DNA from: Ectocarpus siliculosus
Taxonomy: Eukaryota > Sar > Phaeophyceae > Ectocarpales > Ectocarpaceae
DNA length: 64,000 nucleotides
NCBI GenBank assembly: GCA_000310025.1
Contig: FN649740.1
Location: 511,805 to 575,804 of the forward strand
Direction of reading: 5' to 3'
In this document: piece after piece, positions 1 through 29,428 of the stretch
Numbering within the stretch: the stretch's first letter is position 1
How the letters are laid out: the number at the start of each line of letters is the position of its first letter
Program-made: the position numbers and the translations under genes
The notes under the pieces: model-generated
Seen by the model: the letters and a program-made list of their open reading frames with translations, nothing else
What the model was told of the DNA's origin: nothing
Databases searched by the model: none

Positions 1-438
1 GAGCAGGATGAGCCGCTTCTCTGTTAAATTGAATGGATGCATTGCTGTATCGCCAGGTCGTGATTTTACCCTCATCCAATTTTGTCGGCTTTTGGGCTAG
101 ACAGGGGGTCTCATTTCAGGTCTAGCGTCAATGCTTGAGTCAGCATGTCTGCACTCCCACCTTTTAGTGATGTCTGGCATCAGGAACTTCTGTTGTCGTT
201 TTCAATCAACACGGCGTTGACAGAGTAGAATACTGTATATGTCTTGTTCTTGTTTTCATGTTTTCACAGTTGCCGGACCCTATGCGACCTTACGTGATTC
301 TGTCATCTCCAGTATGGCGTGTCCAAGCCGCTCGTCTTGTTGTTCGTTCCTCGATTCCATCCCCATGTTATCTGATCTTGTTGTTTTCCGTCTTGGGGCC
401 TGTGTGATTCCCCCCCCCCCCCTCCCCCTTAACAACAG
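1..438 (+). other. Intron of the poly(A)-binding protein gene
   Basis: No coding segment can be supported here. The stretch is T-rich, has stops in all forward frames, and ends in a C-rich tract followed by a good 3' splice site (AACAACAG, AG at 437-438) directly before the first visible PABP exon. It is read as the 3' part of an intron whose 5' splice site lies to the left of the window. Confidence 0.7.
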
Positions 439-2458: not shown

Positions 2459-2491
<33 letters not shown>

Positions 2492-3245
2492 GGTGCCCCC
2501 CAGCAGCAGTCCATGCCGGCCCCCGGCCCGCAGGCTGCGCCAGCCACGAACGAGTCTCTGTCTGCGGCGGCTCTCGCCGCTGCGCCCCCGGAGAAGCAGA
2601 AGAACATGATCGGGGAGCGCCTGTACCCTCTCATCTACGAGGGCCAGCCGGCCCTGGCTGGAAAGATCACCGGTAAGAGAGAAAGCCCATCCCCTTTGCG
2701 CCCCTCGCCTTTAAATGCATATGAGCATCGTGTGCGTTATCAGCTTGTGGTGGTTATTCGTGGGGGCTACTGCTATGAATTTTTGCGGAATGTACAGGAG
2801 AGGTTGCAAGAGCTGCTGGTTGAGATTACCGCAGGACCAAGAATTTTTTTTTTGCATGTAGAGGTCGGCTTGGAGAGATTGGCAGTCTCTTGGCACTGTG
2901 TCACTGTAGGTGCCATCCTGAAAACGTGCTTCTCTGCCGCAGGTCTTGATGTATGTTTTGGCCGGTACCACAGTACTCTTAAGGCTTCTGCATGCTTGTT
3001 GTACATCACAATCCCGAATCTTTTGCCGAGCTTCGCTCGCCATTGGAGCGTCCTCTCGACCTTACTCTTGCATCCGCGTCCTCTGGTCTATACTGCCGCG
3101 TTTGCTCTCCCTCGTCTCCCCAGGCATGCTCCTCGAGATGGACAACGGAGAGCTCCTCCACCTGCTCGAGTCCCCGGATTCTCTCGCTGCGAAGATCAAC
3201 GAGGCTCTGCAGGTCCTGAGCGAGCACCAGCAGGAGAACAACTAG
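439..3245 (+). CDS. PABP: Polyadenylate-binding protein, C-terminal part (5' exons outside the window)
   Basis: Cytoplasmic poly(A)-binding protein, which coats mRNA tails and recruits translation and deadenylation factors. Four exons are visible: 439-1065, 1427-1552, 2369-2672 and 3124-3245 (stop TAG). The introns are GT-AG and phases close (0, 0, 1). The first exon holds the end of the RRM3 linker ([10 protein letters not shown]) and a full RRM4 with RNP2 VNVYVKNL and RNP1 KGFGFVCF, ending in the family hallmark [12 protein letters not shown] Met/Pro/Gly-rich linker and a run of 13 Gln (exon 3) follow. Exons 3-4 together encode the MLLE (PABC) domain, starting at [21 protein letters not shown] and running through [15 protein letters not shown] to the C-terminus, which binds PAM2-motif partners. 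The residues fit the family very closely. RRM1-3 must lie upstream. Exon 2 has a CAGCAG tandem acceptor, so the number of Gln at that junction may vary. Confidence 0.95.
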
Positions 3246-5714: not shown

Positions 5715-8700
5715 ATGTCGTGGCTGGAGGGATCGCCGAAGCACCAGGGATCCAAGGCCAAGCCAGCACCGGGATCGAGTGCAAGAGGTTTGTGGTCGTC
5801 CTCTACGACCAGGTGCGAGACGACAACGAGCACCACCGCTCTGTTGCTGTGGAAGGATTAGCAACGTGTTCAATTCCTCTGCTGCTGCTTCTGCAACCCG
5901 TAGTTACAGAGAGGCCCTTATAGCTGAGCCTCCTTGCTCTCTCCGTTTTCTCTGTCTGATGGAGCCTTGCACGGAGCATTGCATGCGAACGGACTTATCT
6001 AGCGGCTGCTGCTTCGGCCGTTGCGTTTGTGGCCTTGCGACGCCGGTTGTATCTGACGAGGAAGGTGCATATACATTTTACATGCACACAGCCAGCACTA
6101 CTTGTAAGCTCACTTGTCTCTCAACCCCTACTTTGAATTCCCCGAGACGCGTTGATGGCCAAGAGGATGACACGGCTCTCCTACCATTGCCCCCGATCTA
6201 AACGACGTACAACGATCGACATCTAGTCTATGGTGATATGCACACAGCTGTACTACCTTTTTTTGCAGGCCCATGCGTCGCACGATGACGCGTGCCGGAT
6301 GGCCGGTTAAAGTATATGCTTCGGGATTCGAAAAGTGCGTACCGTCTCTCACGACCTGTACCCTTGAGTCCAGCGGTGCCACACCTACTCTCACGTTTTT
6401 GCGAACACCCGCTTTGCAAGTTCTAGTACATATGGTTGCGGCCAAGCCTGCGTGGGTGCTGCTGCGCGCTAGCCGCGTACGCGTGCCACACAGCAGCGTG
6501 CCACATTCTGTGATTGGTCCTGTGATCCTGTGATACGAGGTGCTCAGAGAGCCAGTATCGCTGCGCAGCACTAAGGATGACTGGAATTGACACATTTTTC
6601 AACACAATTTTTCTTCGCGGGTCGTTCAAAAAAAATTACGAGTTTTTCAGTCCTTCGTTTATCTGAAAACAGATTTCCCACGGGTGCGCTTATACCTCAA
6701 AGGTACTTTTCATCATGAGAAGCACCACCGTGTCACGCCTGAGCCATGCCGGCCAATGAAAGCACCTCAAATACATATATCTGATGGTGACCCTACCTGT
6801 CTGTTTGGTTCCCAATACGAGAAAATACACCTGTTTTGTGCAGGTACTGCTGTATGTGTACGTTGGCGCGTAAACCCATTGGGACTGGTAGGGAAGTCGA
6901 CCGGTAGATGTCGACGTGCTGCTGTGTATCCTTTCGGCGTGCTCTCTTCCTGCTTCCCTCTCGGGCGGCATGCATGAAACAAGAACATTTATCATTTCCA
7001 AAACCAAAACACGGCCGGTCTGATGAGAACGACTTAGAGGCATGTGTGTTTTCGGTCTCATGTCACACCACAAATTGTCAATACACATGCCCTCCTCCAA
7101 CGTTTTGCCTTCATCCATGGCATCGGCAAAGAGCACAACTGACAAGAGCCAAACAGTCATCCAAGTCACAGCGCTTCTGTTCTCCCCTCGCTTTTGTGGC
7201 AACTACCAGGACGTATGGAAGCAGCAGGCGACCAACGTCGAGCCTGCGCGGCTCCGCAGCCTCCGGGCCAAAGGCGGGGGGTCTGTTCAGGGGCCACACC
7301 CCCGCGGGTGGGGCGGGAGGGGGGCAGTACGGCTTGACCAGAGTGGGGCTATCGTCTGCCTACGATGAGGACCCGAAGTCACCTTTGGGTGACGACTCGT
7401 TGGCGTCGAGGGCTTCCCCCGAGCTTGATTCTTCCCCCATCGTGCTGACGTCGTTCGCGTGAGTGTTTCGTTCGAGAGAGTGTTAAAAGTTGGAGGAGCA
7501 GTCAAGAGCCTCCACGAAACAAGCAGAGATCCATGTTTCAAATTGCAGCGAGGATGCCAATGTATCTTGCGACACCCCTCCTTTGATCTCATTTTGGATG
7601 GATTTTTGTATCTAGTGCATTTTTAAGCATCCTCGGTATGTATGCACCAGTCCAAAGCCGGGAGTGCGGCCCTGACGGTTTTTCTTATGTACGACCCGCT
7701 GTAAGCCGCGCTTGTTGTGTATTGATTGCGTCTCTGCTTTGCAAGCATTGTGGTACATGTTGTTTGTTGCTCTGGTTGGGACCTGCTGCTCCCTTTTACC
7801 TTGAGCCTGTCTGCCCTACTTCCTTCCACATCTTGTTGCGTTTTGAGGTGGTCACCAGGCTGAACACACAGCTGGGACAGATGTGCAATGCAGGCGGAGG
7901 CTTGCCCAGAGTACGGTGTACCCAACCTCACCCGTCCGTGGAAAGTCCACCACGGGACATGACTGCCCGTCCAAACATGAACCGCTCATGATCCTAATGC
8001 TGTTTTTCAGAAGAAATGGTCCAACCTTTTAAGAGGTCGGTTGTAGCACAACGCGAGAGCCAGTCACACGGCACCAATATCGCCGTACCAAAGCGTCCAA
8101 AGGTCCGATAGGTGGCCTGGTGCGGTTCTCAACGCCTCCGTTTGTCTCCCCGAACTGTTGCTCGTATCCACAGCAAACGTGGCTTGGATCTCGACCTAGA
8201 ATCTCCCGGCGACAGCGCTGCCGCTGCGGCCGCTGCCCCCTCCGACCCAAAGGCAGCCGGCAGGAAGGCCAAGAAGACGACCGCGCGTGCCCGGAAAGGC
8301 GCTAGTCGAAGTCGAGCTGCGAGGTCGTCCTCTGCTGACCCTACCCCAAAGGGAGAGGCGGGGACACCAGCGATGGAGGAGGTGGATGCACCGGCGCCCG
8401 CCCCCAAGCGCAAGGTACCCGCCGCCCGCAAGACTCGGGCGGCGAGGCGTGCCGGCGCTGGCGGCGCTGGCGGCGCAAGTGATTCCGCCGTAATCTCCGA
8501 AATCTCCGGCACCGGCCAAGAGGAGGGGGTTGTTGCGGAGGGGGGCCGACCACGGGCATCGTCGTCATCGCAGCAGAGTGTTCGTCGGGAGCGGTCACCG
8601 ACGAGGAGGGGAGCCGGGAGGCCGGAGCGGTGGGCCGATCGTGGTGGCGGCGGGGAGTCGGCGGGGAGGGGGCCTTCCTCTCCCCTGTCGAGTCCGCTGA

Positions 8701-11700
8701 GGCCAATCACGAACTACACGTCGGAAGGGGACAGGCCACCGCGCACGAAGGCAAAGGTGAACATGGGTGTCGTGTATGGTCGAGGGTAAGGGATGGATGG
8801 ATCGACCGCTACCGCCTCTAGACTAGGATCGATCTAAGGTACGTTTGTTCTCCGCCTGAAACCGGCCTACACCCAGCATGCATCAGTTGACGGCAGTCTT
8901 GTTTTCTATGTGGGAGGAAGTAGAACTGCTTCGAGGAACGCCGTAAGGGTAAGAGTACCGCCGTGTTCGCACGTCGATTGTGTAAAACGAATCGTAGGTT
9001 TTGTGTAACGCATCACCGGTGGTTGTTCTGGTTGTTCTCTCGGGCCGGCCGTTTGGCATGCAATCGTTATTTCAGGTCGCCGGTGCCAAGACGTGTGCAA
9101 CCGCTGCCGGAGGCGGGGAGAACTACAGCAGCAACGGCGGTGGCGGCGACGGCAGCAGCAAGAGCAGCAGCTCGGAAGAAGAAGAGGAATGGCGAGACGA
9201 CGGCATGGACTTCACGAGGAGCGCGTCGTTGAACGTCGGCAACGGCAACGGTAAGGCGAAGGAGGCCGGCAGCATCCGGCCATCCAACCCCAAGCCCGGC
9301 GGTGGCCGCCGTCGCAAGGGCGAAAGCAAGACCAAGCGCGCTGCCCCTCTTCCTGCCGCCACGCGGGGGTCGAGAAGCAGCGCGAGGGGCAAGATGCGCG
9401 CAGAAGCAGCAGCGGCGGCGGCGGCGGCGGCGGTGGCGGTGGCGGTTGACGATCCGTTGTCCGACGGCGGTGACGATTCTGAGGGGTCCAATTGCGACAA
9501 GTTTGACGAGGACAATCACCTATCGCCGATAGTCCCTACACCTCTCCTGTCCCCGGGAGGTGCGCGTGGTGTCAATCGTTTGCCGGAGTTCAGGGGGGTG
9601 GGTTTGTTTTGGACAGTTTTGCTCTCTCTGCAGGACAAGGGTTTGGATTTTTCGCGGCCCACCATCGTCCCGTATTGTTTCCGCGGGGCCTTGAAGGGGT
9701 TGATGCTGGGAGGTGGTGTTTGCAAAAGAGAGTTATTTATAGACCTGTAGACCCCCCGGGGAAGAATATTTCATGGGGTTGTTAGAATGTGTGGCACCCA
9801 CTGCCCTGGCGTAGTGGCTTGCACCACCTCAAGCCGTCGCTGCCCGAGGCTGAGTCACTGCTGTCCCCCCCCCCCCCCCCCGCCCTGGCCAATGATGATC
9901 GTGTGCAGGCGCAGCTTCCTTAGAAGTCAAACTTTCCCTCGACAGCAGCGCCGAGGGCATTCTTGTGGGAGACAAGCGGCCCCGTGGGAGCAAGAGGGGT
10001 GCCCGTGGCGTGGAAGACGCCACAACGCTGCACAGAAGCAGCCGAAGCCGACACCTCAGCCCCATGATCCCTGTTTCTGGGAGCTTGGTCAGGCATGGTG
10101 CGTGCGACAGCTCCGGGCTTGCTGTTGGTGTTCTTCCCCCACCCCCTGCCCCATAGTCTGGGCCGACGAAAACCCGACAAACCTGTCCGTCCGGGCATTG
10201 TAGGGATGCGAGGTCAATGGCCTAACGATACGGCATGCGTTTACAATATGAGTACCCTCTCCCCCCCCCCTCGGTGTTTGCCATCGGGGTTGGGGTTTCG
10301 TCGCTTGGCAGCGATGTTGTAAAACAAGCCGATCACTTCGTGAGCTCGGCAACCAGGTTACCGTTTTTTTTTTTTCCTTTTTTTTTTTGCGGTAACCATG
10401 CATGGTGGTCGAGCAGATTATGTTGTGCGGGGTCGAGAACCTTCACTCCGCGCAAGGGGGATAATCGCACCACGTTGTGATCTCTCCTGCGTGCCCCCCT
10501 GTTCGTCTGTCTGTGTTGTATGCCTCGTCAGGTTTCAGTGTTGAAGAAGAAAACGACAGCGAGCTCGACGACGCCGTGATCGATGCGACAGGAGACGACA
10601 GCGATGACCTAGACGATGTCGTTATAGACTTAACTTCATCGTCTACCGACGTGATCCCAAGGCCCAAACCGCCGTGCCCGACTACGACAACGGCGGGAAG
10701 CGCACCTGCGGTGGCCTCATCCACATCCAGCATACTCAAGCGGGCCGCCCCCGACCCCACGGACTTGAAGGCCCACGCGTCTGCGCCAGCGCTAGCGATG
10801 ACCACCAGCCCGGCTTTGGTCGGACTCAGCAGACGGCCGCGCCGCGAGGCCCAGAGGGTCACCCACGGGGAGAAGAGGGCGCCGGCTCTGGCTCAAGCGT
10901 CCTCAGTGGAAGATCTCGCCCGTGGGGGGTGGGGGGACGACAGCCCCCCCGCCAGGCTATCCCGGTCTTTGTCGTTGTCGCAGACCTCGGCGCCCTCCGC
11001 TTGGCACGGGGCCGCCGCCGCCGCCGCCGCCGCTGCCGGCTGCGCCAAGGTCACCCGGTCCTCCCACCGCCGCAGGTCCAGGGCCAACTCGACGTCGTCA
11101 CCCTTGCCGGTGCTGGAGATGTCCGCATCCATGCCGACCGGCGGCATCGGTCTTTCTGACGCCACAGCGGTAGCGAGGGAAGACTTCACCGCTCGCAGTT
11201 TCGGGTCGGTGGCCTCTCTCAGGCACAGGAGGAGAGGGAGCCTTGGCGGTGGCAGTGGCGGCGGCGGCGACGGCATCAAACACGCGCGGAGGAAGAGCTC
11301 CTGCGAGGTCTCTAGCGGAAGCAACGCGCCGTTGTCCCGCTCCCATCGCATGCCCAGTTTCAACCACGGGAACAGCCTACGGAACCCTGGCCGACCGGTC
11401 TCTCTTCCGCAGGGAATCATGGAGAGGGGAAGCCGCCGCGGCGGGGAAGAGATTCCGGGAGAGGCGTTGTCGATCGGCGGCGACGCCGGGTTCGGTTGGG
11501 TGTTGCGCTCTCCCGGCGCTCCCCCTGACGACCGCCGCCGGTCGAAATCGTTCGCGGGCGGCGCGAGGCCGAGCGCGACGCACGCGAGGTCCGACTCGAA
11601 CCCCGTGCGATCTTCTGGCGGTGGAGCGGCACAGTACCCCCCTGGTCTCGCCGGTGCCGCTTCCGTCGACATGTACGGCCTGTCGGGCGAATGGGCTAGA

Positions 11701-14700
11701 CGGGACTCGGGCGAGCAGGAATCGGGGATGTTCGTCGCCGGCGACAAGGACGAGGAGATGGCTCCCGCGCAGACGCCGCAGGCCTCCCCGTCGGACACCG
11801 GCGACAGCGCGGCTATGCGCCGGGCGCACGGGCTGAGCTCCGTGGCAAGGCGCATGGACCGGCTGGAGATCAGGTCGCCGGCCGTCGAGACGCACGCCGC
11901 GCAGGTACGGTATTCTGTTTTCTGCAGATAACGAACATTGTCTCTTAACTTCCAGGGGTGTTCTCCCTTGTTGACGTCTCACGTGCTTTTTTTAGGTCGC
12001 CTTGCGAGCGAGGACCTTGGCTTCTTTGATCTCCCAAGGCTTGCCTACAGGCGGGGTGGTAGTGTACTGCTGCGAGTGCATCGTCCGAGCACGCGGTGTG
12101 CGCACGTGCGGACGCGCTTGCCGCTGGAGGCGCACCCACTCACAGACCGGCGCTGCCTGCCACCGCCCTCGTGCATCATGTATTGCTTGCTCAGTTTGGT
12201 TGTTGCCTTTCCTCGCCTGCCGCCCTCTGGTAATGATGATTTTCACGATCCTTCTTGGGGGTGTAGGCCCAACTTGAGATCATGGCCGATTCGACCGGCG
12301 ACAACCCTGGCCATGGCCATTCCATTCCCGAGGCGACGACGTCTCTCGGAGGCAGTGACGGAACGCCGAGCCGACCCCGAATCAGTTCGCTGCCTGCCCA
12401 CTACACCCCGGTGGGTAACTCGAACGTCGCGAGAAACGAGCGATCGAGGTTGAGCGGGGCCGGTGGTTCCCCGACGGAGTGCTTCCGTGACTACCTGAGC
12501 GGCCTTCATGGGAAGGAAGAGGAGGAGGACGACGAGGAGGTGAGGTTGCGGCACAAGTATTGGCGGAACAGCTGCCGTGACGGAAGGGAAGTCTCTGTGA
12601 TGGCTGGATTCTCGTCGCGTTTCTGTTTGCCGCCTTCTCCAATCGCATGTCGGGCTGATACGTTCGGTCCTTACTGCTGTATTGTTTGCCCTCTCTGTTT
12701 CAAGCATTATGCCTGTCCTCTCTCCTGCTCTTTTCGAACATCGCCGCTGCTTGTCGATAATTTTGCTATTTAACTCATTACGGGACAACAACCCAACGTA
12801 CCACCCGTTGCTCTTCCCCCCGATGGATGACACGCATGCACACCACACCGCAGCTCCTCGGCGAGGCTAAGCACGAAGGAAAGGCGCCGAAGACCCCGTC
12901 TGCAGTCGCCACGCCCTCGGCGCCCGCGTCCCACAGCCCCCCGGGAGTCACCTGCACCCGGTCCACCGCGCTGGGCCTTCCCAGCCCCATCCTTGCCGGT
13001 CTATTCGGAGACGCCGACAACAGCCACGCCCTCCAAACCGACGCCAGCTTTACACCGCGGGCAGGCTCGGTCGCTTCTGGTGGCAGCAGTGGTGCCGCAG
13101 TCGACGGTGCCCCCGGCGGGAGCGGTGGCGCCAGTGGCGAGGGCGAAGCGGTTGGTGGCGAAGGGGGGGTCGGGGCTACGGGAAGGGGTGCGTCGCTGGC
13201 CCGGAAGGGAGCGAAGCTGGGGCTCGGGGCGAAGGCGAAGACTCTGCCAGCGCGCGGCACTCGAGCGTCTCCGGAGGGCGGGTGAGAAGTAGTTGGGTGT
13301 GGCTTGTCTTGTGTTTCATGCTTTGGCCGTGGGAGGGGTTGGTGCATTGGGGCAGAGGGTGGAGCGATTGGAACCGTAACGTATGATATGTATGGTATAC
13401 CGGTTTTGTGATGCATGCCCTGAATAGCCGAGAGCTTTCGCAGTTGTGGCTTCACGTTCGTTTGAAACCTTTCGACACCTGCTCTCAAGGCGCGTCTCCC
13501 TACACTAGCAAGGGTTCATGTTAGGGTTCCCTTGACCTGCTTCCCGGCGCCTGTCCGACATCCGGGGTGCTTGACTCACCCCCCCCCGCAACCCGTTTTT
13601 TGTCCATTCGTTTCCCCTTGGGCCCCCCCCCCCCCCCATCACTGCCTCCGCCGATACGCGCCCGACTATCCTCTTAGGTTCTTGATACGGAGGAAAACGC
13701 TCGGGAATGCTCCCTCCTCCTCCTCCTTTGCCTCGTCGACTAGCTGGCCGAAGGCATACGCGGGGCAGGGTCGAGAAGACGACACCGCTGCGGAGCCCCC
13801 GAAGTTAGAGCGCCTGAGCAGCGGCAGCCGCAGCAGCAGCCTGTACCTGAGCTGCCTTAGCTCCGGAGAAGCGGTCCAGGTACACCTACATACCCACCAG
13901 TGTTGCGCTGCCTGCCCTGAAGACCGTGTATTCTCCCGCCTCGTTTGAGGTCTTGCCGCCTGTGTGTGTCGCAAGGTGGCGTTTTCGTTCCCTGGGTGTA
14001 CACTCCACCCCTCCGGTCTATCTCCCGCTTTAGGCGCTTTGTGCTGTGTTGTTGTGGGCAGCAAGCAGCAATAGCCACTCACACGCGCTTCCGATTTCTG
14101 TTTCTGGTCGCACGGCGGCGTTGTTCGTGTCAATGTGTCAATCCTAACTCTTGGTGCGCTGTCGAAGTGGTCGGTAATCACACGGCACAGCATAAGCCGT
14201 TGCAAGCTCTCTGCTTGTTTGAGATGGGAGATACGTGTTGCGGTTTGATTGCAAGATTAGTGTGTGAAGGTCGGAGGTCCGGGTTTTTTGGGTTGTACTT
14301 ATCGATATGCTCGACGTTGTCTCGTCGCGCCCTCTCCTATGTTCTTGATAACCGCTTAGGTCTCTGCTGAGTACCATCTACCATCCTTTTACCGGTCCAA
14401 CTGACGCGGAAGGCTTGAATGGTCACAGGCAAAATACCTAAAACGGGTAGATACACGCCTTCGACAAATTACAGAACCCATAACAAATCAACACAAGCGA
14501 ACCAGAACCAGACACTAGATCTCACACTGTCGATATGTTGATGGCCCATCCTCCTGCGAAAATGATACTTGTAGGTTTGTTCCTATTTTTTGCATATTTT
14601 TCCGTGCTGTTCTGTGCACACTTTTTTTGTGTTGTTCCGTTGTGTTGTAATTTCCTCTGCTAATAGTCTCCTGGTGAAGGACAACAAGCGGAAGTTGCCC

Positions 14701-17700
14701 CGCATCAGCAACAGAGGAGCATTTCGAGCCCTCTGTCCGTGCCCCTGATGGTGAAGGAGTTCGACACGCCCTCGGCATCGGGAAGCTCTGCTTGTGTTCA
14801 ACGGGCGAGAGCAGCGGCCGCCTACAACGAAGGAGGTGAAAGAAAGCACGTTTAGAGCAGTTTTGCATCCCCTTTTGAGCGCCTTACATTTTGTAAGGTT
14901 TCTGCGGGGGGTTGGGTTAATGGCCAAAAGTGCGAGAGGGTGATGTAGTCTCGTCGCTGGTGGCTGTGAGGTCGCGACAGGGGTACACACTACCGCAGGT
15001 ACGGCTGTAGGTGCGGCTCTTGACGGGGCGAGGACAGAACAGGACCTGTAGCAACCAACGTTGCGCTGCTGACGGTGGTGCCATCTATCATAGGACTAGC
15101 GCGGTGTCGGGGTTGTTTGGAGATTTTGTTGGCGTGGTATGCTACTAAACTTATGCATACGGCTAGATGAAGCTCTGTCTCTGTCGCTCTCTCTCTCTTG
15201 CCCTGCGGAGCAAGAACGATTGACTCGCGTTGCACCGACCGGTTTGTACGGCAAGGTGCAATAATACGTGTGTGCCGTTGTAGTGTTGCTACAGCAAGCT
15301 GCTTCCTTACTGTAGCGTGCGCGTGGCGAGCACGAGTGTCACCGCTGCAGCAAGAGCGTGCAGGAAAAACCCCGGCTTGACGACATGTTGCTGTCCTCCG
15401 GGTGCTTCGCGTTTGTTGTGCAGCCGCAGGTGTGTCCGGTACCGACAAGCAGGGACTGGACGCGACGGATTCCCGGTCAACGACTGACCCGACTTCTGCT
15501 GGCAGAGATAAAGACAGAGATAGAGATAGCCGCTATCGCTCTCCCGCTCTTGGTGCCCCAGGTAAGCCGCGAGCCTTCCAAAGATTGAGGTTAAGGCGTT
15601 CACCGCTACGTATCCTAGGAAGACGGCTGACGATTTTTTCTGTGCTGTTTGCGCCTGTTCTAGGCAGGTGCCATCGCTTTCACCGAGTTAAAATCCTCTC
15701 TGCGAAGAAAAGGAGTGCGAATGAGTCCGTGTCCCACGTGACCCTTCGGGTTGTTGCTTCTGAGCTCTTGAACCCCCTTCACAGCCTCCTTTGGGCCAAA
15801 GAACGTCAAAGAACGTCCTTCCTTGTTATTGTTGTCTCTCCCGACCGCTTCGTGTTCACCATCGTCCGCCATGTCGTTCTCGGAAACAAACACGTACACG
15901 CACATGCACGCCATTGCTCTTGCTCTTCAGCCGCCGCTTCTTCCGGGATGTCGGACCGAGGAGGCAACCGTCGCACGTCCACGGAATCTGTTGGGGCCAC
16001 CACCTCACGGACGCAGTTCGAAACCCCTCAGCCGGAGGTACAGTACTGTATGCAGACGACTCGATTTTGTTTTCCCCGGCACGATTTGTTTGTGCCTTGC
16101 CGTATCAGAGACTCTGTATCCTTGTTTTGTTTTTTTTCGGTCCAAACAATTTCTGGTTTGGGTTGGTGGGTATTTTGTCACGATCGTGCATAGTCATGAC
16201 CCGCACGTTTGCTACCGCTGCATGTGTTTGCTGGGCTCTGCAATCTTTTTGTACTCCTGCGCCCCGCCCTTGTCCGCATTGTTGTTACTTTAATATGGTC
16301 GTCTCGAACGTTGTGCTGTAATGGATTGATGGGTGTTCGTGTCGCGACAGACGAAGCTCAAGTGGGGCAGCCAGCCCCAGTACGGTGACTGGGGCATCAG
16401 TCAGCGGGCATCCGCCGGCAGCTTGCGGCACCTGGCCGGGCGTCTCCGAGCGTTCGTGGACAGAGCTACAGGAAGGCGTGCCAGCGGAGGACGGGTGAGA
16501 GAAGAGAGTTCGGGACACAATACAACACATGAGTGTTTCCTCGTCTGCATGGAAAGTCGATGATCCTGCATCGTGCCCCGCGGTTTAAGCGAGCCGAGTC
16601 TAGATACACACGACAGGGTGGTCGCGATGAGCCAGTGCAAGTCAGATGGGGATTGATTATTTCCGCTTGCTCGAAAAATGATGTTCGGATGGAGGTGACC
16701 AGCCGCAGTACCATCCGACTCAAGACGTATACAATACAATGTATGGGCATATCGTCGAAGTACATACTGTACCCCATAGTGCCCTTGGATCCAAAGGTTA
16801 CACATACGACGTGGTCCTACGACCAGCAAGTCCCCAGCCCGTTGATGCTGAAGCACGCTGAAATATCCTTGCCACGGGCTGTGGTGACCAGAATCGTTAA
16901 ACCTGAAGAGGATCGCTGTGGAGCGAAACACCGCCATAGGGCAGGTTCCGTTTCTCGTCACTAGATGCTTGGATGTGAAGAACCGCAGTCTCCGGGTTGA
17001 CCTCGCAACACTTTGCTGCAAGGGTGGTACAAACACCTATTTTCGTAACGTTTACGCGCAACGCCGTCCTATTTAATGTACAATACTTCTCCAGGACTCG
17101 GACGGCGGCGGCGGCGGCGGTGACTTGCCGATGTCGATGGCGTCTCCCGTCATGCACGGCTCCGCCTCCACCGCGGAGACACCTCTCGAGGGCGTCACCA
17201 CGCCCCTGCCGGATCTCCCGGATCTCCCACTCCTCCCACCCCCTCAAGCGACCCCGGGGTCTTCAAAAGGCGGCGGCGCCGGTGATTCGGGGTCCCTCCT
17301 CGCTTACGGTAACTCTCTCGGAGCCGTTTCGGAACGCGAAGGAGGAAGGAGCGGTGCTGGTGTCAAGGGCGGTGAGACGGAAGACGGTGATGGTGACGGT
17401 GATGGGTACTTTGGTGGTATTGCCGGGAGCGAGGGCTTGGAGGAGACGGACGTGTGTGCGGAGGAGAGGGAGGGACTGGGGGCTGCGGAGATGCAAGCGT
17501 TGTGGGACCCTTCGGTGTTCGGTGACGACGGGTGAGTGGGGTGGGGAGGAGGGGTTGTTGGTGGAACCAGTCGGCCGCCGGTGTTGTTCGTGGGGACGGC
17601 TAGGCAGTGTTCGTGGATTGTGTGGAAGTTGATTTCATGTGTTTTATTGGTAGCATCGACCGCTCTAAACGGCAGATCAACGAGGCGGCAGTCTTGTGTG

Positions 17701-20700
17701 TAGCGGGATATTGAAACTCGGACACGCGTCTAATGAGAAGGTTCTACCGACAGATGTACATATATTGTGTGTTGAGCTGCAGGAAGGCCTTTGTTGTCTC
17801 TTGGGTCTGGGCACTTTTGTTGTTCAGCCGTAGGAGGCGTTTGTTGTCTTTCGTTTTTGTGCACTTCTTTTGTTTTGCGCAATTTTGTTGTTTGAGCCGC
17901 AGGAGGTTGTTGTTGTCTCGTGTTCTACGGACTTGAGTTGTTGAGCCGCAGAAGACGTTTGGTTTCTCTTGTTTCCGTGCACTCTTGTCTTGTTGTTGCC
18001 GCGGAACTCACGACCCTCGATGCCCACGCTCTCTCTTGGCCGGCGGCGGCGGCGGCGGTGCGTGCGACAGATTGCGACGGCGAGACGGCTCGGTCGGGGT
18101 CGGGAGAGGCAGGCGAGGCCGGGATCGCCTCAGCAGCCTCATGATGACCGAGGGGCAGCGGGAGAAACAGCGGCGGCGGCAGTCCAAGGCAAAGCGGCGG
18201 AGGGTTTCCATCAGCATCAAGGTACAATAGGCGTCGTAGATAAATAAGAGTCTTAATCCTTGCAAGATTTTTACGGCAGTACGCGTCGCTGCTCAAAGGG
18301 ACACGACAAGCCAAACGGTCCCGTTGTCGTGACTCTCAGCGCCTTAACCCTTAACCTGAACGTGACTCCTCTATCCGCTATCGTTCTTCCTCCTTTTTGT
18401 TTTGGCCGGCGGTACCGGTAGTCAGTATTGTCGTTGCCTCAGGCTATATCATGCAAGATATCGTCTCCAGTCCGCTTATTGTCCACCATCGCCTCTGCAT
18501 TTTTCATGAAAAGCTTCTTCACCCAATTTCGAACGTCGGGTCATGGCTTTATCATGTCTTGACCCTCACTTTTGCCCCTCCGTCGAACGTGTACCTCACA
18601 CCCCCGTGCCCTCTATTCTCTGGCCATCACCCCATCCCTGCATGTCGTTCGAACAAAAGTCGCACCCAACAAGTCAACCTCTATCATCGAGCTGCCGATG
18701 CCCAGCTGACGCTTGCTCGTACCCCATCCCCTCCGTCGCTCCATGTAACGCCTTTTTCATTGTGGAAAAAAAAAAACAGTCGCGGAGGACAAGCAGCAGC
18801 GTGGGGCTAACCTCTCGCCTGGCGGGGCTTTCTCTTCTGGAGGTGGCAGAGGCGTCCAGCCCTGGCCCCGGCAAGATGGAGCCGCGGTCTCGTCTGTCTC
18901 CCTATCCCAAGGCTGCCGCGTTTGCCGGTGGCGCCATCTCCGAGGGGGAAGAGGAGGACGAGGACGATGAGGTATGTCTTGTGTACGTTCGTGTGTGTGT
19001 TTTTTTTTGTCGAGTACACGTAGGCAGCACAGGGGCGGGGGGACACGGGGGTGGTGAATGTTTTGTTTCTGGTCAATCCCGTCGCGTATTGTAGTAATTG
19101 CTGCTTCTCGTTCTATGGTTTCGTTGGACAAATCTGATTGGTGGTGCCAAGCGATATGTATGTACGCCTGATACGTGTTGCTGTCGTTTGTCTATCCGCC
19201 GTTCCTTCATGACTCTTGGATGTTGATGTATGGTATGGTATTTTCTTCGGCTGTTTTCTTGCCGAACGGAAGCTTAAGCTCAAACGCGCTCGTGTTTCCC
19301 CCGGCACTGGCAGCAACGAGAGGAGGAGGACAAGGATTCAAGCATGCTCCAGGCCGTACCGACACCCAAACCCACCCAAGGCCAAAGGAGTTGGTCATCT
19401 CAAGGTCTAGCCAGTCCCATGTCGGTGGAAAGGCCCGCGTGGCCAAACCAAGAGAGAGACAGAGACCGACCGCGGGAAGACGGCAGAGGTATGCATGCTT
19501 GTGGTGATAACGAGAAACATGGTGTTGAAACCGCCAACATTACGGTGAGGCATCCGTTCAAACAGGGAGGGAGAGAAGTTGGCCGCGTACCAGCAGCGGG
19601 CAGAGTGAGGCGGTCAGGCCGTCGTGGACGAGAGCTTCGCGCCAGACGTTCGTCGTTGTTTCGTTGTTGGATTTGCTGTTGCTGTTGCTGCTGTTGTCGT
19701 TACTTGTGGCGCTCCTCAATCGTCGCCGAGTAGCAGGATCGAATTGCGCCGCCTTATGTCTGTGAGATTTAGCTTGGTCGCAGGCTCGTCATGCCTGCAA
19801 CAGCTGGCTGAAGGTGTTTATTACGGTGTGTGCTAACGAACGTCATGCAGACTTTAGTCAAGTCAAGGACATACAGCAGTACTGCGGAACACCAAAATCC
19901 TTCTTCAACGCTCCGCACCCTTTCACCCACGTTACCCCCGCCTCTTCCTCGACCCTATGCTTTGCAGCAGAAACGCCTGCAAAGGTTCGGGAAGACCTGG
20001 AGAAATCGCTGACGGAACTTAACAACCTCTCCTTGTCCATCTGCAACAGCGAGGTCAGTTGCGGCGCAATCTACACGGGACTGCTTTACTGCTGTAATGT
20101 TCGACCAATCAGAACAATCAGAAGCATTGTCGCCTTGTCCCGCGTTTGTGTAGAGTGTAGAACAGTCGTTGGTGACGGGCGTGCGTCGTGCGCTTCTCTG
20201 TTGCACGTGTGAAGACATGGCGCGGTACGATGCATTGCGTTGGTAGGTTCCAGTAGCGTGTTGGATACGTGGGGATATCAAACTTGACGTGTGTGTCGAC
20301 ATATTGTCTGCCGTCGCAGCTGCAGGTGTATCCGCTGCTAGTTTCGCGTCTGTGCAAAGAAGCGCTAATTACTACTTTTATGTAGTACCGTTGCCTGTCT
20401 CCTTGCCACCACTCTATAGTGCCGCCTTCATATCCCGTGGCTTGAACCACCGCCGCCGTCCCTTCGTGATGGCTGTTGTATCGCTACCCCCAGGAAAACG
20501 ACTCGCCTGCCAAGCACGAGCGGCAGCAGCAGCAGCAGCAGCGGCCCTCCAAGACCGACGACACGAGCTACGATTCCGGCAGCGCGGGCGCCGATATCCT
20601 CGCCGGCCTCGACTCATCGTCCTCGTCGCCGGTGGCCATCGCTACGACCAAGGCCTCCTCGTTGCCCACCCTCGGCCTTGACTGCGGCGGCGTCGCCGAT

Positions 20701-21145
20701 ACCGTCCTAAGAATCGGTGATACCACGGGGCCCCCCGCGGTGGTATCGACCGAGAGCGCTTTGGAGGCGTTACGGCGACCCGGGGTGATGGCGAAGGCCC
20801 TCCGCATGCTCTCCGTCGACGAGCTTCTCGGCGACGTGCCGCTCGTTTGCGCCGCCTGGAGAAAGGCTTCCGTGTACGCCTTTGCTGAGGTTGCCTCGGA
20901 CATGACGGCTGGCGCCGAGGATAAGGGCCGGGCGGCGGGCGGCGGGAGGGCGCTGAGGGGAAGAAGAGCGGGGAAGGTTAAGGCGCCTGCGCCGGTTGCT
21001 TCGCGTAGCGTGTGGTCCGAGGAAAAGCTGGTGGGGACGTTTCCCTGGGGGGGGTTCCTATCCGAAGGGGCTTGCAAGCAGGTACACCATGGTTCATGTG
21101 GGGAGATGAGGATACTCTCTGCTGTCTTGGATGGTCTGGCGAATG

Positions 21146-21200
<55 letters not shown>

Positions 21201-24200
21201 CCCGGCGGGATGATTTTGGCGACGTAACCTATTGGGAGTGTGGTTCAGAACCCCTTTACTCTCTCACCATTTCTCTGTGTCCTGCTCGCTTGCCTTTCGT
21301 CCGATACGACACGACACGACACGACACGACACGACACGACACGACACGACACGACACGACACGACACGACACGACGACTGCCGAAAAAAGGTGCACAAGG
21401 TGTGGAACGCCGCCACCGGGCAGATGGAGGCCCTGAGCGTGATGGACCGGAAAGAGCTGGAGGAAGACGAGGAAGTGGTACGTACCGTACCATACCGTAC
21501 CATACCATACCGTACCGTCACCGTAGGTGACATGATGTAAGATACCACGCACCCTGGACCGATTCTCAAGGCTCGATTTTTTGACCGAAGAAAGTGTGGC
21601 GGTGCCGAGAGAGGCAGCGTTGGAACCGTTTCGTCGAGATCTTTCGGAAACCTCATCTTTTGAGCTTGGCATCCTCTTCGTCGGTGGAGTAGTCGGGCTT
21701 TGAAAGTCGGTCCCGAGGGCGTGGTATATTGTGTCTTGTGTGTCACCTACGGCACTTGGTTCCGTTTGATTGCACGCTCGTGGTTCCGAGCCACACCCAG
21801 TGGTAGAGGCGCATGTACAAAATGAGTCGGATAACGACCAGCAAAAGAGGTAGGGTACCTGTAGATGCGACAACGATTTATTCGCCAGCTTCGTGTTGAT
21901 TACAACAACGCGTCCACCTTGAAATCAACACGTGGTCGAAAGCTGCAAGTACTTCCAACTTGTTCGATAGTATGGGGGTAGCACGGATATCTTGCCCCGC
22001 CGCTTTGGAAGCACCTCCGGATTGTAGGCAGTCTTGTCAAGTTTTTGTGAATAGTTTTGGATCGCAAGTTAAGCGAAAGATGCTGCGATACTGCCGCCGT
22101 TTTTTCTGAGTTTATTGTGAGCTTCCGTCGTGGTTGACAAGGACAAACAAGCAAGAGCTTTTTCTCCTCGTGCTGCAGCACGGTTGTTGGGATGCGCGAC
22201 ATAAAATGGGTGGCAAAGGAGTTTCTCCTTCCGATACCTTCGCACACATAAGTTGTAGCATTTTCATTATTGTAGTTCTGACCGCAGGTCGGGTGCGGAT
22301 CAGATATTGTACATCATCACACTCGTCATGGTCATCCTGAGGGTCGACCTTTACGCCATGTCTGCCTTTGGCGGTTTGTTTTCTCGCGGGTGTCGGTCCT
22401 GCTTTTTTTGTGGTATACTGTATTGCAGGTGTCCCGAGAAGTGAGGGTGAGCATACTGGCTTCGTCCTTGGTGCAGCGGCGAATCTCCCCCAACTTCGTG
22501 CAGACCTTCGGCCTCTTCCGCAGCACCGTGCCTCTCCACCCCGAGGTGAGATGAGGTCGATCCCTCTTTACCCCCCCCCCCCCCCCCCCGGGGTTTGCCA
22601 TCGGGATTGGGTTTTCCTCCCTTGGCAACCACCTTTTAAAAAAAGCCAATTCCCTTCGTGAACTCCGCAACCAGGTTACCGTTTTTTTTTTTACCTCGGT
22701 TTTTTTTTTTTGGCGGTAACCATAATGGTGGTCGAGTAGATCATGTTGTGCGGGGTCGAGAAACCTCACTCCGCGCAACGGGGGATGATCGCACCACGTT
22801 GTGTTAAAATGGTCAAGCTTCCTCGAGGCAGTTACACAGTGCTTACAACTGTCTCTGGAAGTGAACGCACCAGAAAATAAATTAAGTCATACGTAGCTGT
22901 CATCCGTACGCAAGGAAGTAAGCACAAGATGCCGAACACCCTTAGCAGGATGCAGCTCACCCTTCATGCGACTCGCCAAATACCTCACGGCGCTTCGCGC
23001 TTGGTGATGTGAGAGCCTGGTCCGGTGAGAACCCGGCGTGCTCCGTCCCGGCTTTGTAGGGATGCGAGGTCAATGGTCAAACGACTACGGCATGCACGAC
23101 TATGAGTACACCCCCCCCCCGCCCCCATTTCAGTGTTAAATTGGTCAAGCACCCTCGAGGTAGTTACACAACGCTTACAACTCTCTCTGAAAGTGAGAGC
23201 ATCAGAAAATAAATTAAGTCATTGAACGCAGCTGTCATCCGCACGCAAGGAAGTAAGCACAAGATGCCGAACACCCTCAGCAGGATGCAGCGCACCCTTC
23301 ATGCGACTCGCTGAATACCTCACGGCGCTTCGCGCTTGGTGATGTGAGAGCCTGGTCCGGTGAGAACCCGGCGTGCTCCGTCCCGGCTTTGTAGGGATGC
23401 GAGGTCAATGGTCTAACGACTACAGCATGCACGACTATGAGTACCCCCCCCCCCCCCTCTTGCTGTTGGGTGTGTTTAGGGTCGTTTGACGTGAAGTTGG
23501 TCGACACTGCCTCGATTTTGACCTGTGTCGCTTTGGGATGCGTCGCACCCCCCCCTGCTGTTGGAGCAACGTTGCTGTCACCGAAGGGTCTTCTCGTAGT
23601 CTAGGTGGTGTCGGTACACTCTAGTCCTGTTTGTAGCTACTTTGTGTTTCTGCGATTTGTTGGTGTGTGTGGCGTGGCGCGTGATGCTGCTGACACCCAC
23701 GGTACACGTTCGTCCTTGCTCTGTTATAGGATGTAGGGTAGATGTTAACGTTCACGTTAACGTTAATGTTTGTGCAATGGCACGGCATGGCGCAGTGCGA
23801 GGCATATATCGCCTATTCGGATTATTTTCTTCCGTAGGTGAAGGTGCTTTTGGCATTAGCGTTTGTTCGTCCAACCTATACACATACGATGCAGTACGTA
23901 TATCTCGTGAGATGTGCCCGTCAAGTCTCATTCATTCGTTCATCCGATCCTCGCCCCCCTTTGCAAATTCACCCCCAACAGCTGTTCGGCACGAAGGAAG
24001 AGAAGTATCCTTGCGGGCGAAGTCCGGGGATAATCCGCCATCGCCCCCGGGTTCCCAATCCCTCGGTTGGGGGAGTGTCGCAAGGGCGAGGGGTTGGCCG
24101 CTCTAACCCCCACGCGTCTGCCAGCAGTGGTAGCGACCTTCGATATCAGGTAAGGCGTTTGTCTTGTCTATATACTTGTACAGTTGTAGGTGGCCTTGGT

Positions 24201-27200
24201 TTACCGATACAATTGCTTGGGTCCGATATGGTGTGACTGCTGTCCGGTTGTCAATTGGCACAGCAATAGCCTGCGATGTGGCCATGCCATGGATGGATGC
24301 TGTTTTGCGTTTTCTGGGCTTGGCTACTATGTGAAAACGTCGTTTGTTGGTGCTGTGTGTGGGCTATGCTATTTCGCTCTTTTTTATTTATGTTTTTTGG
24401 TTGCCTTCTCGGGGGAAGAGCAAAAGACTAAGACGCGCGCTGTTGGAATTGAGGATTGATACCCCTGCGGCCACAGAGGCCATGGGTATAGGCTGGGAGG
24501 GCGTGTGCACTAATGAGGTGGCGGCCGTTTTGCCTCTGGCCTCCTCGAGGTGATGCTGACACAACAGCATTGCTGTAGCGAGCATGCCATGCCATTGCCT
24601 CACGGCCGTCGTTCTGATTGCATCCTGTAGGGTGGCACCCAGCCAACCAACCTACAACCATTCTAGGCCAAAGTCTGGGCTAGACTGGTGTACGTTTGTC
24701 GATGTCCTCTGTTAAGGATACAAGCCTTTTTTTGTATAGTTCTGATTTTGGCGATCTAGTGTGTGTGTGTGTTTGTGTGCTTTCTTTCCCCCCTGGCAAT
24801 CAAGCATGGTCGCAGCACTGTCATCAGGGTAAGCCTCCTGTGTGCAAACATCTCAGCTATGATGGTATGTGTTGGGGAATGATTTGGGTGTAGATTAATT
24901 TCATATGTAGCGGCTCGTTGTCCCTTTTGATGATTTGTTCCTGTTAGCAGCGAAAAAAGTTGTTTCTCTTGCGTCTCCTTCCACAGCCTGCTCATCCTTC
25001 CATACTACATGTATCCCCTCCCCCGAAACACAACCAGTACATCGGCATGGAGCTCTGCGAGCACGGGGACGCCGAGGTGTTCATCAAGACACAACGCGAC
25101 GGCCTCCTGCCCACCGTTGAGGCACAGGGTTTCCTCTTCCAGATGGCGTTCGCCCTCTACGCCGGCCGGGCGGAGCTGAGCCTGCGGCACTTCGACGTGA
25201 AGCTTCTCAACTTTTTCGTTTCGGATGCTTCGCGGCTAGTCGGCGGCGGCGGCCAATGCGGTGGGGGCGGGGGTGACGTGGAAGAAGGGGGCCCCGTGAC
25301 CCTGCGATACGGGGTGGGGGGTGACGTGGTGGAGCTGTGCCTGCCTCAAGACCGGGCGTACCTGGTGAGTGGGGCCTGGGTGGGATAGAAGACAAGATTT
25401 TGTGTGCTGTGGTTCCGTGCGCCCCGCACTTTTTTGCATGCTAGGCCTTGCTTTTTAAGTCTTGTTTCGCTTGCAGTGTTTCAATTTGAAGCAGATTTGG
25501 ATGAGTTCCCAGTACCACATGGGTAATGTGCTCGATCGGACGTGCGCCAGAGAGACAAAGGGAGAGGGAGAGGGAGCGAGCTAACCTGCAAGGGCTTGGG
25601 CGCGCGTTCGCGTGGATGGTTGTGCCCTCAATACTTCTTGCATTTTGTCAAATTTCCTTCACGCAGGTTATTGTGTAACGTGTGACTTTATTTCGTAATA
25701 TTTGCTGAGTTGAGTTGTTGGCCGTTCGTTTTCAATGCTGTAGGGTCGACTTGTAGCGGTTATGGAGTTGACGAGGCGTTTCAGCGGAATTGGGCGAAGC
25801 GCATCAAGTGGTAAAGATGGTGCGCGGCTTGCCGCACATGATATTTTTTTGTGCGCACGTTTGTGTGCGAAAAAACTCGGTAGAACAATCGTGGCCCCTC
25901 CTGCGGTATTTACATGGTATGCACGTTTCAAACACCTTTTCTTGTGAATCCTCCTACTTGACGCAGGCTCTTGCTGCGCTCGACTTTTGCAGCAATGGTC
26001 CACGTTCCCTCTCTCTTGTGTGTCATGCAATGTAAAACGTGCCAATGTGGTCGTGCAGGTAAAGCTTGCGGACTTCGGTACGGCGGATGTGGACCCTCTC
26101 ACGGTAGGAAACCCTGTGGAGGCGTGTCACTTCTCCACACTAGAGAACACACCCATCGAGCAGCTGTGCTGCGGCAACAAGGCCGTGCAGGTGATTATTT
26201 GATGGGAACATGAATAACGTTGTTGTGTTTGAATGTTGAGTTGATTGCGTTTCGTGAAACCTGCTGTCTTACCGCCCCGAAATAGGATGAAGTACGTTTG
26301 GCATTTGGTTGCTGCTAGATAATACATGTAGGCATTTGCATTTTGCAAACACCGTAATTTTGCACTCAGTACATGCAACATACCAAAGGCGATACAGCTG
26401 TGTGAAGCTGATGTGCTTTGTTTCTTGCAACAAGAAGGGAATCATGTTCTTCCCTACCTCCATCAGTGGAAAACCCCGGTCATACAAGAGACATGGAAAA
26501 ATATGCGATTGGTTCGGTTGAAAGTGTAGCTCGCCCACTAGCGTGCCTACTATTTCTCGAGTCACCCACAGCAGTGACGATTCCTTCGTAGGCAACAGGC
26601 TCAACTAGACAACTCGGGTTGTGTCCACGAAGTGCATGTCAATCTCTCTCTCTCTTTCGTTGACTTTTTTCCGACACAAAGGGCTTGTCGGAAACCTCAA
26701 GGGTATTCTTGTGACGTCATTCTGCCTTCTCCCTAACCTTGATTGGTCTGCGGTCGGGACTGTAATGTTTTTCGTGCGGTGCATCCAGGGGTATGCTAGC
26801 GACACCTTCGCGCTGGCCCTGGCGGCGTTCCACCTCTTCACGGGAGAGGCGCCTTACGAAGAGATCATGGAAGAGGTGACCACTACCAGGATACCAGGAT
26901 TGATTGCATAGACTGAAATCGTCGTAAAACGGGAGGCAGTGTCTAAATTTCGGGGATAGTGTGTATGAAGGGTGTGGAGTGAGACAATGCATCTGTAACT
27001 GTTACGTAAGAGATAAGTATGGCAGGTGTGCACGGAAGTACTTCCACTTGGTGGCACTACTGCAGTAGAGTTATCTCTTTCGCCCACTCGGTGTTGTGAC
27101 TGCGGTTGCTGCTACTTTTGCTTTGGTTCATGAAGTGCTTTCGCAAAAGTGGTGCGTAGTTGGCTCTCGAGCGATCTCCATCCATGCTCTATGGCGACCC

Positions 27201-29328
27201 CAAGAATGCTCTTAGCGCACCTTTGCTTTGCATCTCTTACAAAATGGGGTACATGACGCCAAGTACCTCTGAAGCAACATATATCAAGAGTTGCAATTGT
27301 ATGCACGATCAAAACTAGATAGATATGGTCCATCTTCTATGTTGGGCGTGGATGAATAGAAAGAAGTATTCTATGGTTCACCAGCGAGCGGCACGCGTAG
27401 TAAAATTGGAGTCACATGTCTCCCATACGGCTGTACCACACCAAACAAGGTTTTAGTAACTTGAACGCGCAGGTATGTATTTCGTGTAATAAGCTTACAT
27501 GGCGCCGTTTTGTGCCACACACTAGCTTAGTGTAGTGCTGCAGTGTGGTTTCACACACCCCGTGTTCGTTCATGGTTAATCAATCGAAAATCGTCTCGAA
27601 ACCTTGGTACTGTAACCACTGTCAAATTGTCGTCACGTCTTGTGTCTCTCTGAAGTTGGTACAAGGGCCATTTTTTTTTCAATACCTTGCGTGTTTTGTC
27701 TGATTCCCTCGAGTGTGTAAGTGCCTCAATCAGCCCAATCCGCTCCACCGCAGCTACGAGATCTAGAATGCGTTTGGCTTTGTTTAATCCATCGCCTCCT
27801 CACCGTCCCCTTATTGTTATCTGTCTGTCCGTCTGTCCGCAGGTGGAATGCCCCGATGAGCTCTACGACGCCCTCGTGCAGACGTGGGATCAGAACCCGC
27901 AGTACGTGGATGTGTGTGACATCATTATCAACGATGGGAGCGACGAAGAGGAGGATGATGACGTCGGTGATGACGATGACACACAAGACCCAACCTTGCT
28001 GCATACCTTCTACAGGTGGGTACTATAGTAGTGGTACATGGTACCGCATTACTGCGAGTTGCCCGCGGAGGCAGCAGGTTGCTAGCGGTAGCGGCTGGAG
28101 CTTGTAGCAAACGTGTCCCCCCGCATGTGTTAGTATCGCTCCTCTCCTCCTACAAGTGTTTCCGCTTTTTCCTCTTTTTTGTCTTGTCTTCTTCGTACGC
28201 ATCCAGAAGTGCTGTGTCGTGATTGACGTCTCACTGAAGTCGTTCAATCGATCCGTTGATTCGTTGATTCATTGCTTCAGGTACTTGGTGCTGTTTGGTG
28301 TGCCGGATCGTGATCGCTTGGAGGAAGCGTACGGCACGGACAACCCTGTCTGGAAGGCTGTCGGTCCTCTTCTTGGATGGGTAAGTTGATCGCCTTCGTA
28401 GTTCATGTATAGTCGTGGCGGATTTTGTTTCGTGTATTGGGCCTATGCGCATCTACTGTGGCTGCCGTTGCTGGTGCTGTCGGTTGTGCTGTTGTCGCTG
28501 TTTGTGACAAGTTTCCGTGCGAGCTGTGGTCGTTACTGTTACCGTAGCCCTCCGATACGACAATCGGTGCCGGGCTCGCTCGCTGTCCTGTCGACTAGAC
28601 TCGGGGGACTGTTGCTGTTCACCAGTACCCTTGGAGGGAGTTGCGAGAGAGGGAGTATGGCACCTGGTACCATTTGTTCGTGCAGAGGAAATGCACAGTG
28701 CCTCGCGCTCCGAAAGCAATGAAGTTTTGCGTCGACGTATGCCTACACATACGATACATACGGCATGTTCAAAGCAAGAACTGCATTGACATCTACCGAA
28801 GTGGAGATTGACTGCTCCCTTAGAAGTTAGAAGTCTCAAGTAAGGCCAACGGTTGCGGGCGCTTCCAGGCCGTCAGCGGTCCAGTAGTGGTGGCGCGGAG
28901 GGGGGGTGGGGGGGGGGAGCGCCATACATACAACAGGCGGTTATGTTTGGTTCCTCCGGCGTACGTTTCATGAACAGTTGGTAAGCAAATTTTCCTTGTA
29001 TCGAGTATCCTTTGTCTTGATAGTAAACATTCCTGACGTGTTTCCACTGTCTCTCTGTCTGTCAAGTAGGACCGAACGTCCCGATTTATATCCAGTGCCG
29101 TTTGTCTCGAGAATAAGCATTCCTGCCGTGTTTCCGTTGCCTCTCCCTCTCTCTCTCGCTCCCTCTCTTTGTGTGACAACTTGGACCGAACGCAACAAAC
29201 TATCAACAAACATATTATGCATACTGTACTGTTTGCAGAAACAGCCGAGAAGGGGGCGCGGTGGGAGAGCGACGGCGGCCTCCGCAACAGCGTCGAAGAA
29301 GTTCTGCCGGCAGCTGGACCGCGACCGT
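5715..29328 (+). CDS. Giant F-box-like/atypical protein kinase, at least 28 exons, 3' end in assembly gap
   Basis: Predicted signalling protein of at least about 2,480 residues. Exons: 5715-5812, 7210-7458, 8174-8756, 9076-9559, 9924-10097 (or from 9909), 10532-11904, 12267-12539, 12854-13281, 13678-13879, 14667-14835, 15430-15561, 15931-16037, 16351-16494, 17095-17531, 18071-18221, 18780-18971, 19314-19488, 19851-20053, 20494-21081, 21391-21477, 22429-22545, 23982-24149, 25038-25364, 26059-26190, 26789-26875, 27843-28015, 28281-28380, 29239 to gap. All 27 junctions are GT-AG and in phase, which is the main support for one gene. Residues 1 to about 1950 are low-complexity Ser/Arg/Gly/Ala-rich, presumably disordered, with a VVIDLT motif near 560. 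An F-box-like helix lies near 1963-1985 and the kinase domain runs from about 2040 to 2400. The start ATG (sequence MSWLEGSPKH) is the first in-frame Met giving phase continuity. The first exons are least certain, and two adjacent genes cannot be excluded. Confidence 0.75.
10161..10479 (+). repeat. Dispersed intronic repeat R1, copy a (kinase intron 5)
   Basis: Shares several long blocks with 22559-22803 and, inverted, with 37883-38324. In order: GTAGGGATGCGAGGTCAATGG, GAGTACCCTC plus a poly-C run, a GTTTGCCATCGGGG block, an inverted pair GGTTACCG/CGGTAACC enclosing long T runs, and a final block ending CGCACCACGTTGTG. It has no coding capacity. It is best read as a non-autonomous mobile element or its remnant inside the intron between exons 5 and 6. 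Confidence 0.75.
17760..17965 (+). repeat. Degenerate tandem repeat in kinase intron 14
   Basis: Four imperfect units with spacings of about 50-70 bases. Each carries a core like TTGAGCCGCAGGAGG followed by TTTGTTGTCTC and a T-rich tail (cores near 17772, 17823, 17893 and 17944). Every unit looks like a 3' splice site (T-rich tract plus GCAG). The true acceptor, judged by phase, is further right at 18069-18070. Confidence 0.7.
21149..21198 (+). repeat. (CT)n microsatellite
   Basis: About 25 uninterrupted CT dinucleotides inside the 309-base intron between kinase exons 19 and 20. The sense strand is pyrimidine, so the run could act as an extended polypyrimidine tract. Confidence 0.97.
21306..21375 (+). 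repeat. (ACGAC)14 microsatellite
   Basis: Fourteen perfect copies of the pentamer ACGAC, ending 15 bases before the acceptor of kinase exon 20. With the (CT)n run it makes up much of this short intron. Length variation between individuals is likely. Confidence 0.97.
21478..21525 (+). repeat. Degenerate GTACC/ATACC repeat at a 5' splice site
   Basis: The intron after kinase exon 20 begins inside a run of GTACC and ATACC pentamers. The 5' splice site GTACGT is itself one unit, and further GTACC sites follow within 20 bases. Confidence 0.8.
22559..22803 (+). repeat. Dispersed intronic repeat R1, copy b (kinase intron 21)
   Basis: It starts with a 17-base poly-C run and the GTTTGCCATCGGGA block, then the GGTTACCG ... 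CGGTAACC inverted pair around two T runs, and the block ending GATCGCACCACGTTGTG. It matches copy a in order and orientation and runs directly into the tandem R2 units. Confidence 0.85.
22804..23460 (+). repeat. R2: two tandem units of about 315 bases joined to R1
   Basis: Unit 1 is about 22804-23121 and unit 2 about 23136-23460. Each begins TTAAAATGGTCAAGC (or TTAAATTGG), passes AGAAAATAAATTAAGTCAT and CCTCACGGCGCTTCGCGCTT, and ends with GTAGGGATGCGAGGTCAATGG ... GAGTAC and a poly-C tail. The units differ by scattered substitutions, mostly in their left halves. An inverted single copy lies at 37883-38209. No open frame is shared among the copies. Confidence 0.9.
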
Positions 29329-29428
29329 NNNNNNNNNNNNNNNNNNNNNNNNNNNNNNNNNNNNNNNNNNNNNNNNNNNNNNNNNNNNNNNNNNNNNNNN
29401 NNNNNNNNNNNNNNNNNNNNNNNNNNNN
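29329..29428. other. Assembly gap (100 N)
   Basis: A run of exactly 100 N, the usual placeholder for a gap of unknown size. It interrupts the last visible kinase-gene exon (29239 onward, encoding a basic Arg/Gly/Ala/Lys-rich segment ending CRQLDRDR), so the C-terminus and stop codon of that protein are missing. Confidence 0.99.

Follow-up and report, generated by a model that had tools for sequence, protein, structure and literature searches.

A large candidate kinase gene of Ectocarpus siliculosus with a lysine at the WNK-type position and a SUMO-interaction-like motif in its predicted tail

According to the available portions of the cited papers, WNK (with-no-lysine) kinases use a beta-2 lysine, Lys233, in place of Lys72 and are active (PMC4718504), the ATP-site residues Lys233 and Cys250 of WNK1 lie 17 apart (PMC12362796), as do the corresponding residues of the gene described here, and DLG is the chloride-pocket motif of WNK (PMC5346417). 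The available kinome table of Phytophthora infestans includes a WNK (PMC3019232). Here we describe a predicted gene in a window of 64,000 nucleotides of the brown alga Ectocarpus siliculosus (assembly GCA_000310025.1, contig FN649740.1, forward strand, positions 511,805 to 575,804). All positions below are those of the window. We give about even chances to the reading that this gene encodes a large kinase of the with-no-lysine type and that a disordered tail bearing a SUMO-interaction motif (SIM) recruits it.

The kinase domain and the position of its lysine

The only Pfam family matched by the kinase part was PF00069 (E 1.7e-5, profile positions 72-203), and its catalytic aspartate, the following asparagine and the DFG motif are present (D2199, N2204 and DFG 2260-2262). 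This bears out the divergent kinase domain proposed in an earlier reading made from the letters alone (the sequence-only reading). The beta-3 lysine of the VAIK motif is absent and Ser2038 stands there. In an alignment of the N-lobe with MINK1 from the PDB, which is gapless from the loop through beta-3, Lys2021 corresponds to the third glycine of the glycine-rich loop and Ser2038 to the beta-3 lysine. A MAFFT alignment with two further kinases of this genome, one WNK-like and one ordinary, placed Lys2021 in the column of the WNK lysine, Ser2038 in that of the WNK asparagine and E2055 in that of the helix-C glutamate, and the spacing from the lysine to the beta-3 position was 17 in both our gene and the WNK-like kinase. 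It is this WNK-like kinase (L065; G000:C14:1640291-1640383, minus strand; GTGQYK...VAWN, HRDLKCDN and DLG) that fixes the WNK column. The WNK-style place of the lysine is the most specific feature of the gene, and the sequence-only reading was silent on it.

Further searches covered the PDB and the 189-Mb, 492-contig assembly, in which the window lies on contig C15. Sequence matches of the whole domain in the PDB were weak (best E 0.015). No second copy of the gene was found in its own genome, where two stretches of the gene matched only the gene itself, within the limits of the tool. OSR1_C (PF12202) gave no match at E up to 10 in this genome, which also holds L065, and no RFxV/I docking motif was present in the 2,449 residues predicted before an assembly gap.

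In the mechanism that we propose, the long disordered, serine-rich and SIM-bearing tail would bring the C-terminal kinase domain to its partners. K2021 of the glycine-rich loop would substitute for the missing beta-3 lysine, which is the WNK solution, and would pair with E2055 of helix C, while D2199, N2204 and the aspartate of DFG would carry out the chemistry. Judged from these residues, the kinase is probably active, binding ATP and phosphorylating proteins. An active enzyme is plausible because WNK with its beta-2 lysine in the role of Lys72 is active, as stated in the available part of that paper (PMC4718504).

Gene model and tail

Exons were predicted with a dynamic program that uses GT, AG, stop and phase constraints and a phase-specific composition model trained on 14 exon-like stretches. 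From the ATG at 5715, a GT-AG exon chain on the plus strand gives a single open frame free of stops; since the program enforces GT-AG borders and matching phases, these are not independent evidence for the chain. The edited model comprises 27 exons (5715-28380) and 2,419 residues, and addition of 29239-29328 brings it to 28 exons and 2,449 residues without a stop. The sequence-only reading had 28 exons without phase conflict and 2,480 residues or more; a stop-free phased chain was recovered here, with 27 (+1) exons and the shorter length of 2,449 residues. A 100-N assembly gap follows at 29329-29428, and the 3' end of the gene, which was not found, lies across or beyond it.

The number of exons depended on the setting: between 5000 and 29328 the stricter setting gave 28 exons and the looser 40 (the extra ones mostly short), and 29 and 43, respectively, were obtained when the run was extended to 32000. 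Exon 26059-26190, which carries the DFG motif and was absent from the stricter run and truncated in the looser one, was inserted by hand in phase, and the small exon 28877-28905 was dropped by hand. In 25 of the 28 exons the chosen frame outscored the other two, a count that overlaps with the training, in which 14 exon regions were used. When only seven upstream exons were used for training, the chosen frame was best in 11 of the 14 later exons (not at 18071, 23982 and 29239), two of these 11 had negative totals, and an antisense frame scored higher in six of the 14 and tied in one. The strand of the 3' part is fixed by the kinase similarity. Taken as a model, the chain predicts one gene whose protein has about 2,400 residues or more, and all exons likely belong to one transcript, while the start and the weak-scoring exons are uncertain (Table 1).

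The tail (residues 1-1826) contains 77% disorder-promoting residues and 45 SP/TP sites; its disorder, which the sequence-only reading had also proposed, is judged from this composition. In the tail, a GEN1_C match (E 0.14) was the only Pfam hit with E up to 1. The VVIDLT noticed in the same reading was located in DDLDDVVIDLTSSS (DDVVIDLTSSS), which fits the SUMO-interaction consensus of a hydrophobic core with acidic or serine flanks. The tail has a single occurrence of the core pattern [VI][VI][DE][LI][TS], and at least one was seen in 0.9% of 2,000 shuffles.

Table 1. Features of the predicted gene, with positions in the window
Feature	Position	Strand	Basis or remark
Whole gene model, 28 exons	5715..29328	+	ends in assembly gap
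Exon 1, proposed ATG	5715..5812	+	coding score weak (1.0), start uncertain
Exons 2-8, disordered Ser/Gly/basic tail	7210..13281	+	
Exons 2-5	7210-7458, 8174-8756, 9076-9559, 9909-10097	+	
Exons 6-8	10532-11904, 12267-12539, 12854-13281	+	
VVIDLT in DDLDDVVIDLTSSS, residues 564-569	10618..10635	+	SIM-like, fits consensus
Exons 9-18, remainder of tail	13678..20053	+	
Exons 9-13	13678-13879, 14667-14835, 15424-15561, 15931-16037, 16351-16494	+	
Exons 14-18	17095-17531, 18071-18221, 18780-18971, 19314-19488, 19968-20053	+	
Exon 19: linker, F-box-like segment, start of kinase N-lobe	20494..21081	+	
F-box-like segment, residues 1923-1953	20782..20874	+	own-genome F-box profile; no Pfam match
Divergent kinase domain, about residues 2005-2419, exons 19-27	21028..28380	+	
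Kinase exons 19-23	20494-21081, 21391-21477, 22429-22545, 23982-24149, 25038-25364	+	
Kinase exons 24-27	26059-26190, 26789-26875, 27843-28015, 28281-28380	+	
Lys2021, glycine-rich loop, WNK-type position	21076..21078	+	MINK1 and MAFFT alignments
Ser2038, replacing beta-3 (VAIK) lysine	21436..21438	+	MINK1 and MAFFT alignments
Glu2055, helix-C Glu column	22438..22440	+	MAFFT alignment
Catalytic Asp2199 to Asn2204 (HFDVKLLN)	25194..25211	+	MAFFT alignment
DFG motif, residues 2260-2262	26071..26079	+	
Exon 28, doubtful, cut by gap	29239..29328	+	frame without support

The F-box-like segment and rival explanations

Several observations weigh against our reading of an active, SIM-recruited kinase. 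The lysine was placed from one sequence without orthologues, and a lysine would stand in that column by chance in about 3% of cases (the lysine content is 2.6% in the kinase part and 3.6% in the whole protein). The acceptor of exon 20 is poor (gaaaaaag); use of the next AG would shorten the Lys-Ser spacing, yet break the gapless match to MINK1. Coding support is weak in exons 1, 15, 18, 22, 24, 27 and 28. The kinase profile that the sequence-only reading proposed as a check did match, but with 24.8 bits PF00069 stayed below the Pfam cut-off of 31.7, and the exons of the gene were not among the 138 PF00069 matches listed when the genome was searched exon by exon (120 of 678 candidates were scored). 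When the N-lobe was searched against the PDB, the top three of 28 rows were WD-repeat chains (E 0.0011-0.12) and MINK1 came next (0.14). As for the SIM, two patterns in which a pair of acidic residues immediately precedes the five-residue core had 0 matches because a valine intervenes, and a loose four-residue core was no commoner than in shuffles (6 versus 5.7).

With its VAIK lysine missing, its HRD arginine lost through the replacement of HRD by HFD and its PF00069 score under the curated cut-off, the domain might be a pseudokinase scaffold, whose kinase fold provides a docking module and whose loop lysine is coincidental. The available part of the P. infestans kinome paper judges 32 eukaryotic protein kinases of that species unable to phosphorylate (PMC3019232). 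We regard such a scaffold as doubtful, though well worth considering, since the catalytic aspartate and asparagine, DFG and the helix-C glutamate are all kept and a lysine stands at the WNK place. It is unlikely that two genes were joined, exons 1-18 encoding a separate disordered protein and exon 19 onward a smaller kinase. The weakness of exons 15 and 18, which precede the junction, and the lower coding bias of the kinase exons would suit such a division, but exons 18 and 19 are separated by 440 bases and the phase fits over their junction. Moreover, the open frame of exon 19 opens behind a stop codon that lies just upstream of 20470, and its first methionine is inside the F-box-like segment, so that a kinase gene of its own could begin only with an extra start exon further 5'. 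One gene is favoured because of this lack of an early methionine and the 440-base spacing, and the single gene of the sequence-only reading stands as a likely computed model, consistent in exon chain, phase and spacing.

The F-box-like segment bears on a further alternative, an SCF-type kinase in which a true F-box would dock on Skp1 and thereby couple the phosphorylation of a substrate to its ubiquitylation, the tail binding SUMO. An F-box profile built from the own genome reported only this place in the whole protein, where a 56-residue segment scored 9.5 bits (3 of 2,000 shuffles were as high), and among 1,548 windows of 56 residues in the six frames of the 64 kb the segment ranked first (8.8 bits versus 7.7 for the next). 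A single-sequence structure model of 64 residues was helical, with a predicted local distance difference test (pLDDT) of 75 and a predicted template modelling score (pTM) of 0.44, and its best match in a structure comparison had a Z of 4.1. The profile score nevertheless lies below those of all 15 F-boxes tested (15.8-57.4 bits), and neither PF00646 nor PF12937 matched the segment at E up to 10, the outcome that the sequence-only reading had itself named as refuting its proposal. Among the literature matches listed, no description of an F-box/kinase fusion in stramenopiles was found, and the word 'F-box' does not occur in the available part of the P. infestans kinome paper (PMC3019232). We hold an SCF-type kinase to be quite unlikely. 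It is highly unlikely that the gene represents a family unrelated to WNK, whose lysine moved to the loop independently and which, with a fused F-box and SIM, would sense SUMO, phosphorylate a target and pass it to an SCF ligase. The pseudokinase, two-gene and F-box explanations overlap partly with our preferred reading and with each other.

In the preferred reading we infer catalytic activity, SUMO-based recruitment and a possible contact with Skp1 via the F-box-like helix. That the kinase acts on or through ubiquitin/SUMO ligases, as proposed from the letters, is a conjecture from sequence; it draws on the motif of the SIM consensus and on an F-box-like helix that has no curated profile match.

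Surroundings and comparison with known systems

A good part of the intron that precedes exon 20 is taken up by simple repeats, (CT)n (21149-21196) and (ACGAC)n (21306-21375), beside the poor acceptor. Another intronic repeat lies at 22891-23120 and 23226-23455, and part of it again at 10186-10228. The 230-base copy matched at least 40 places in the genome exactly and over its full length, its own included (40 of 1,485 candidates scored), which suggests that the repeat spread recently or was homogenised. Upstream of the gene, at 433-3242 on the plus strand, there is a poly(A)-binding-protein-like gene in two open frames with RRM_1 (E 9.6e-22) and MLLE (E 3.1e-12), and a piece of an FMN_red/WrbA-like reductase is found at 32515-33030 on the minus strand (E 4.3e-5, 23.6 bits versus a cut-off of 24). 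No Pfam family with E up to 0.01 matched two further open frames, at 53092-55815 (minus strand, 908 codons) and 63108-63935 (plus strand); the latter contains MRSAVVLLGFLLASAQAFYIP, which resembles an ASA-F plastid presequence of heterokont algae.

If the kinase is active, the WNK place of the lysine would be found in a kinase otherwise little like WNK and in the same genome as a WNK-like kinase, offering a natural test of the residues that this lysine geometry needs, for example DFG versus the DLG that binds chloride. Should the F-box-like helix bind Skp1, a kinase and a ligase receptor would be united in one chain, and if neither holds, the gene is one more divergent kinase.

Compared with SIM proteins, the gene has the acidic-VVIDLT-serine consensus but only a single motif. 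Its short segment may resemble F-boxes of the same genome but, unlike F-box proteins (PF00646, PF12937), lacks a curated profile match. To the STE20 group (MINK1, MAP4K4) the likeness is a weak N-lobe alignment (E 0.14-0.23) that ranks below WD-repeat chains, and the gene differs in lacking the beta-3 lysine and the third loop glycine. Judged by its other motifs (DFG and HFDVKLLN), the gene is not a WNK, and in BLASTP the WNK pieces (17.3 bits) matched no better than two ordinary kinases did (19.2 and 22.7 bits). In contrast to WNK, the gene has DFG instead of DLG, HFDVKLLN instead of the HRDLKCDN of L065, and serine instead of asparagine or cysteine at beta-3, whereas it shares with WNK the lysine that replaces the third loop glycine, the missing lysine at beta-3 and the L065 spacing between the two.
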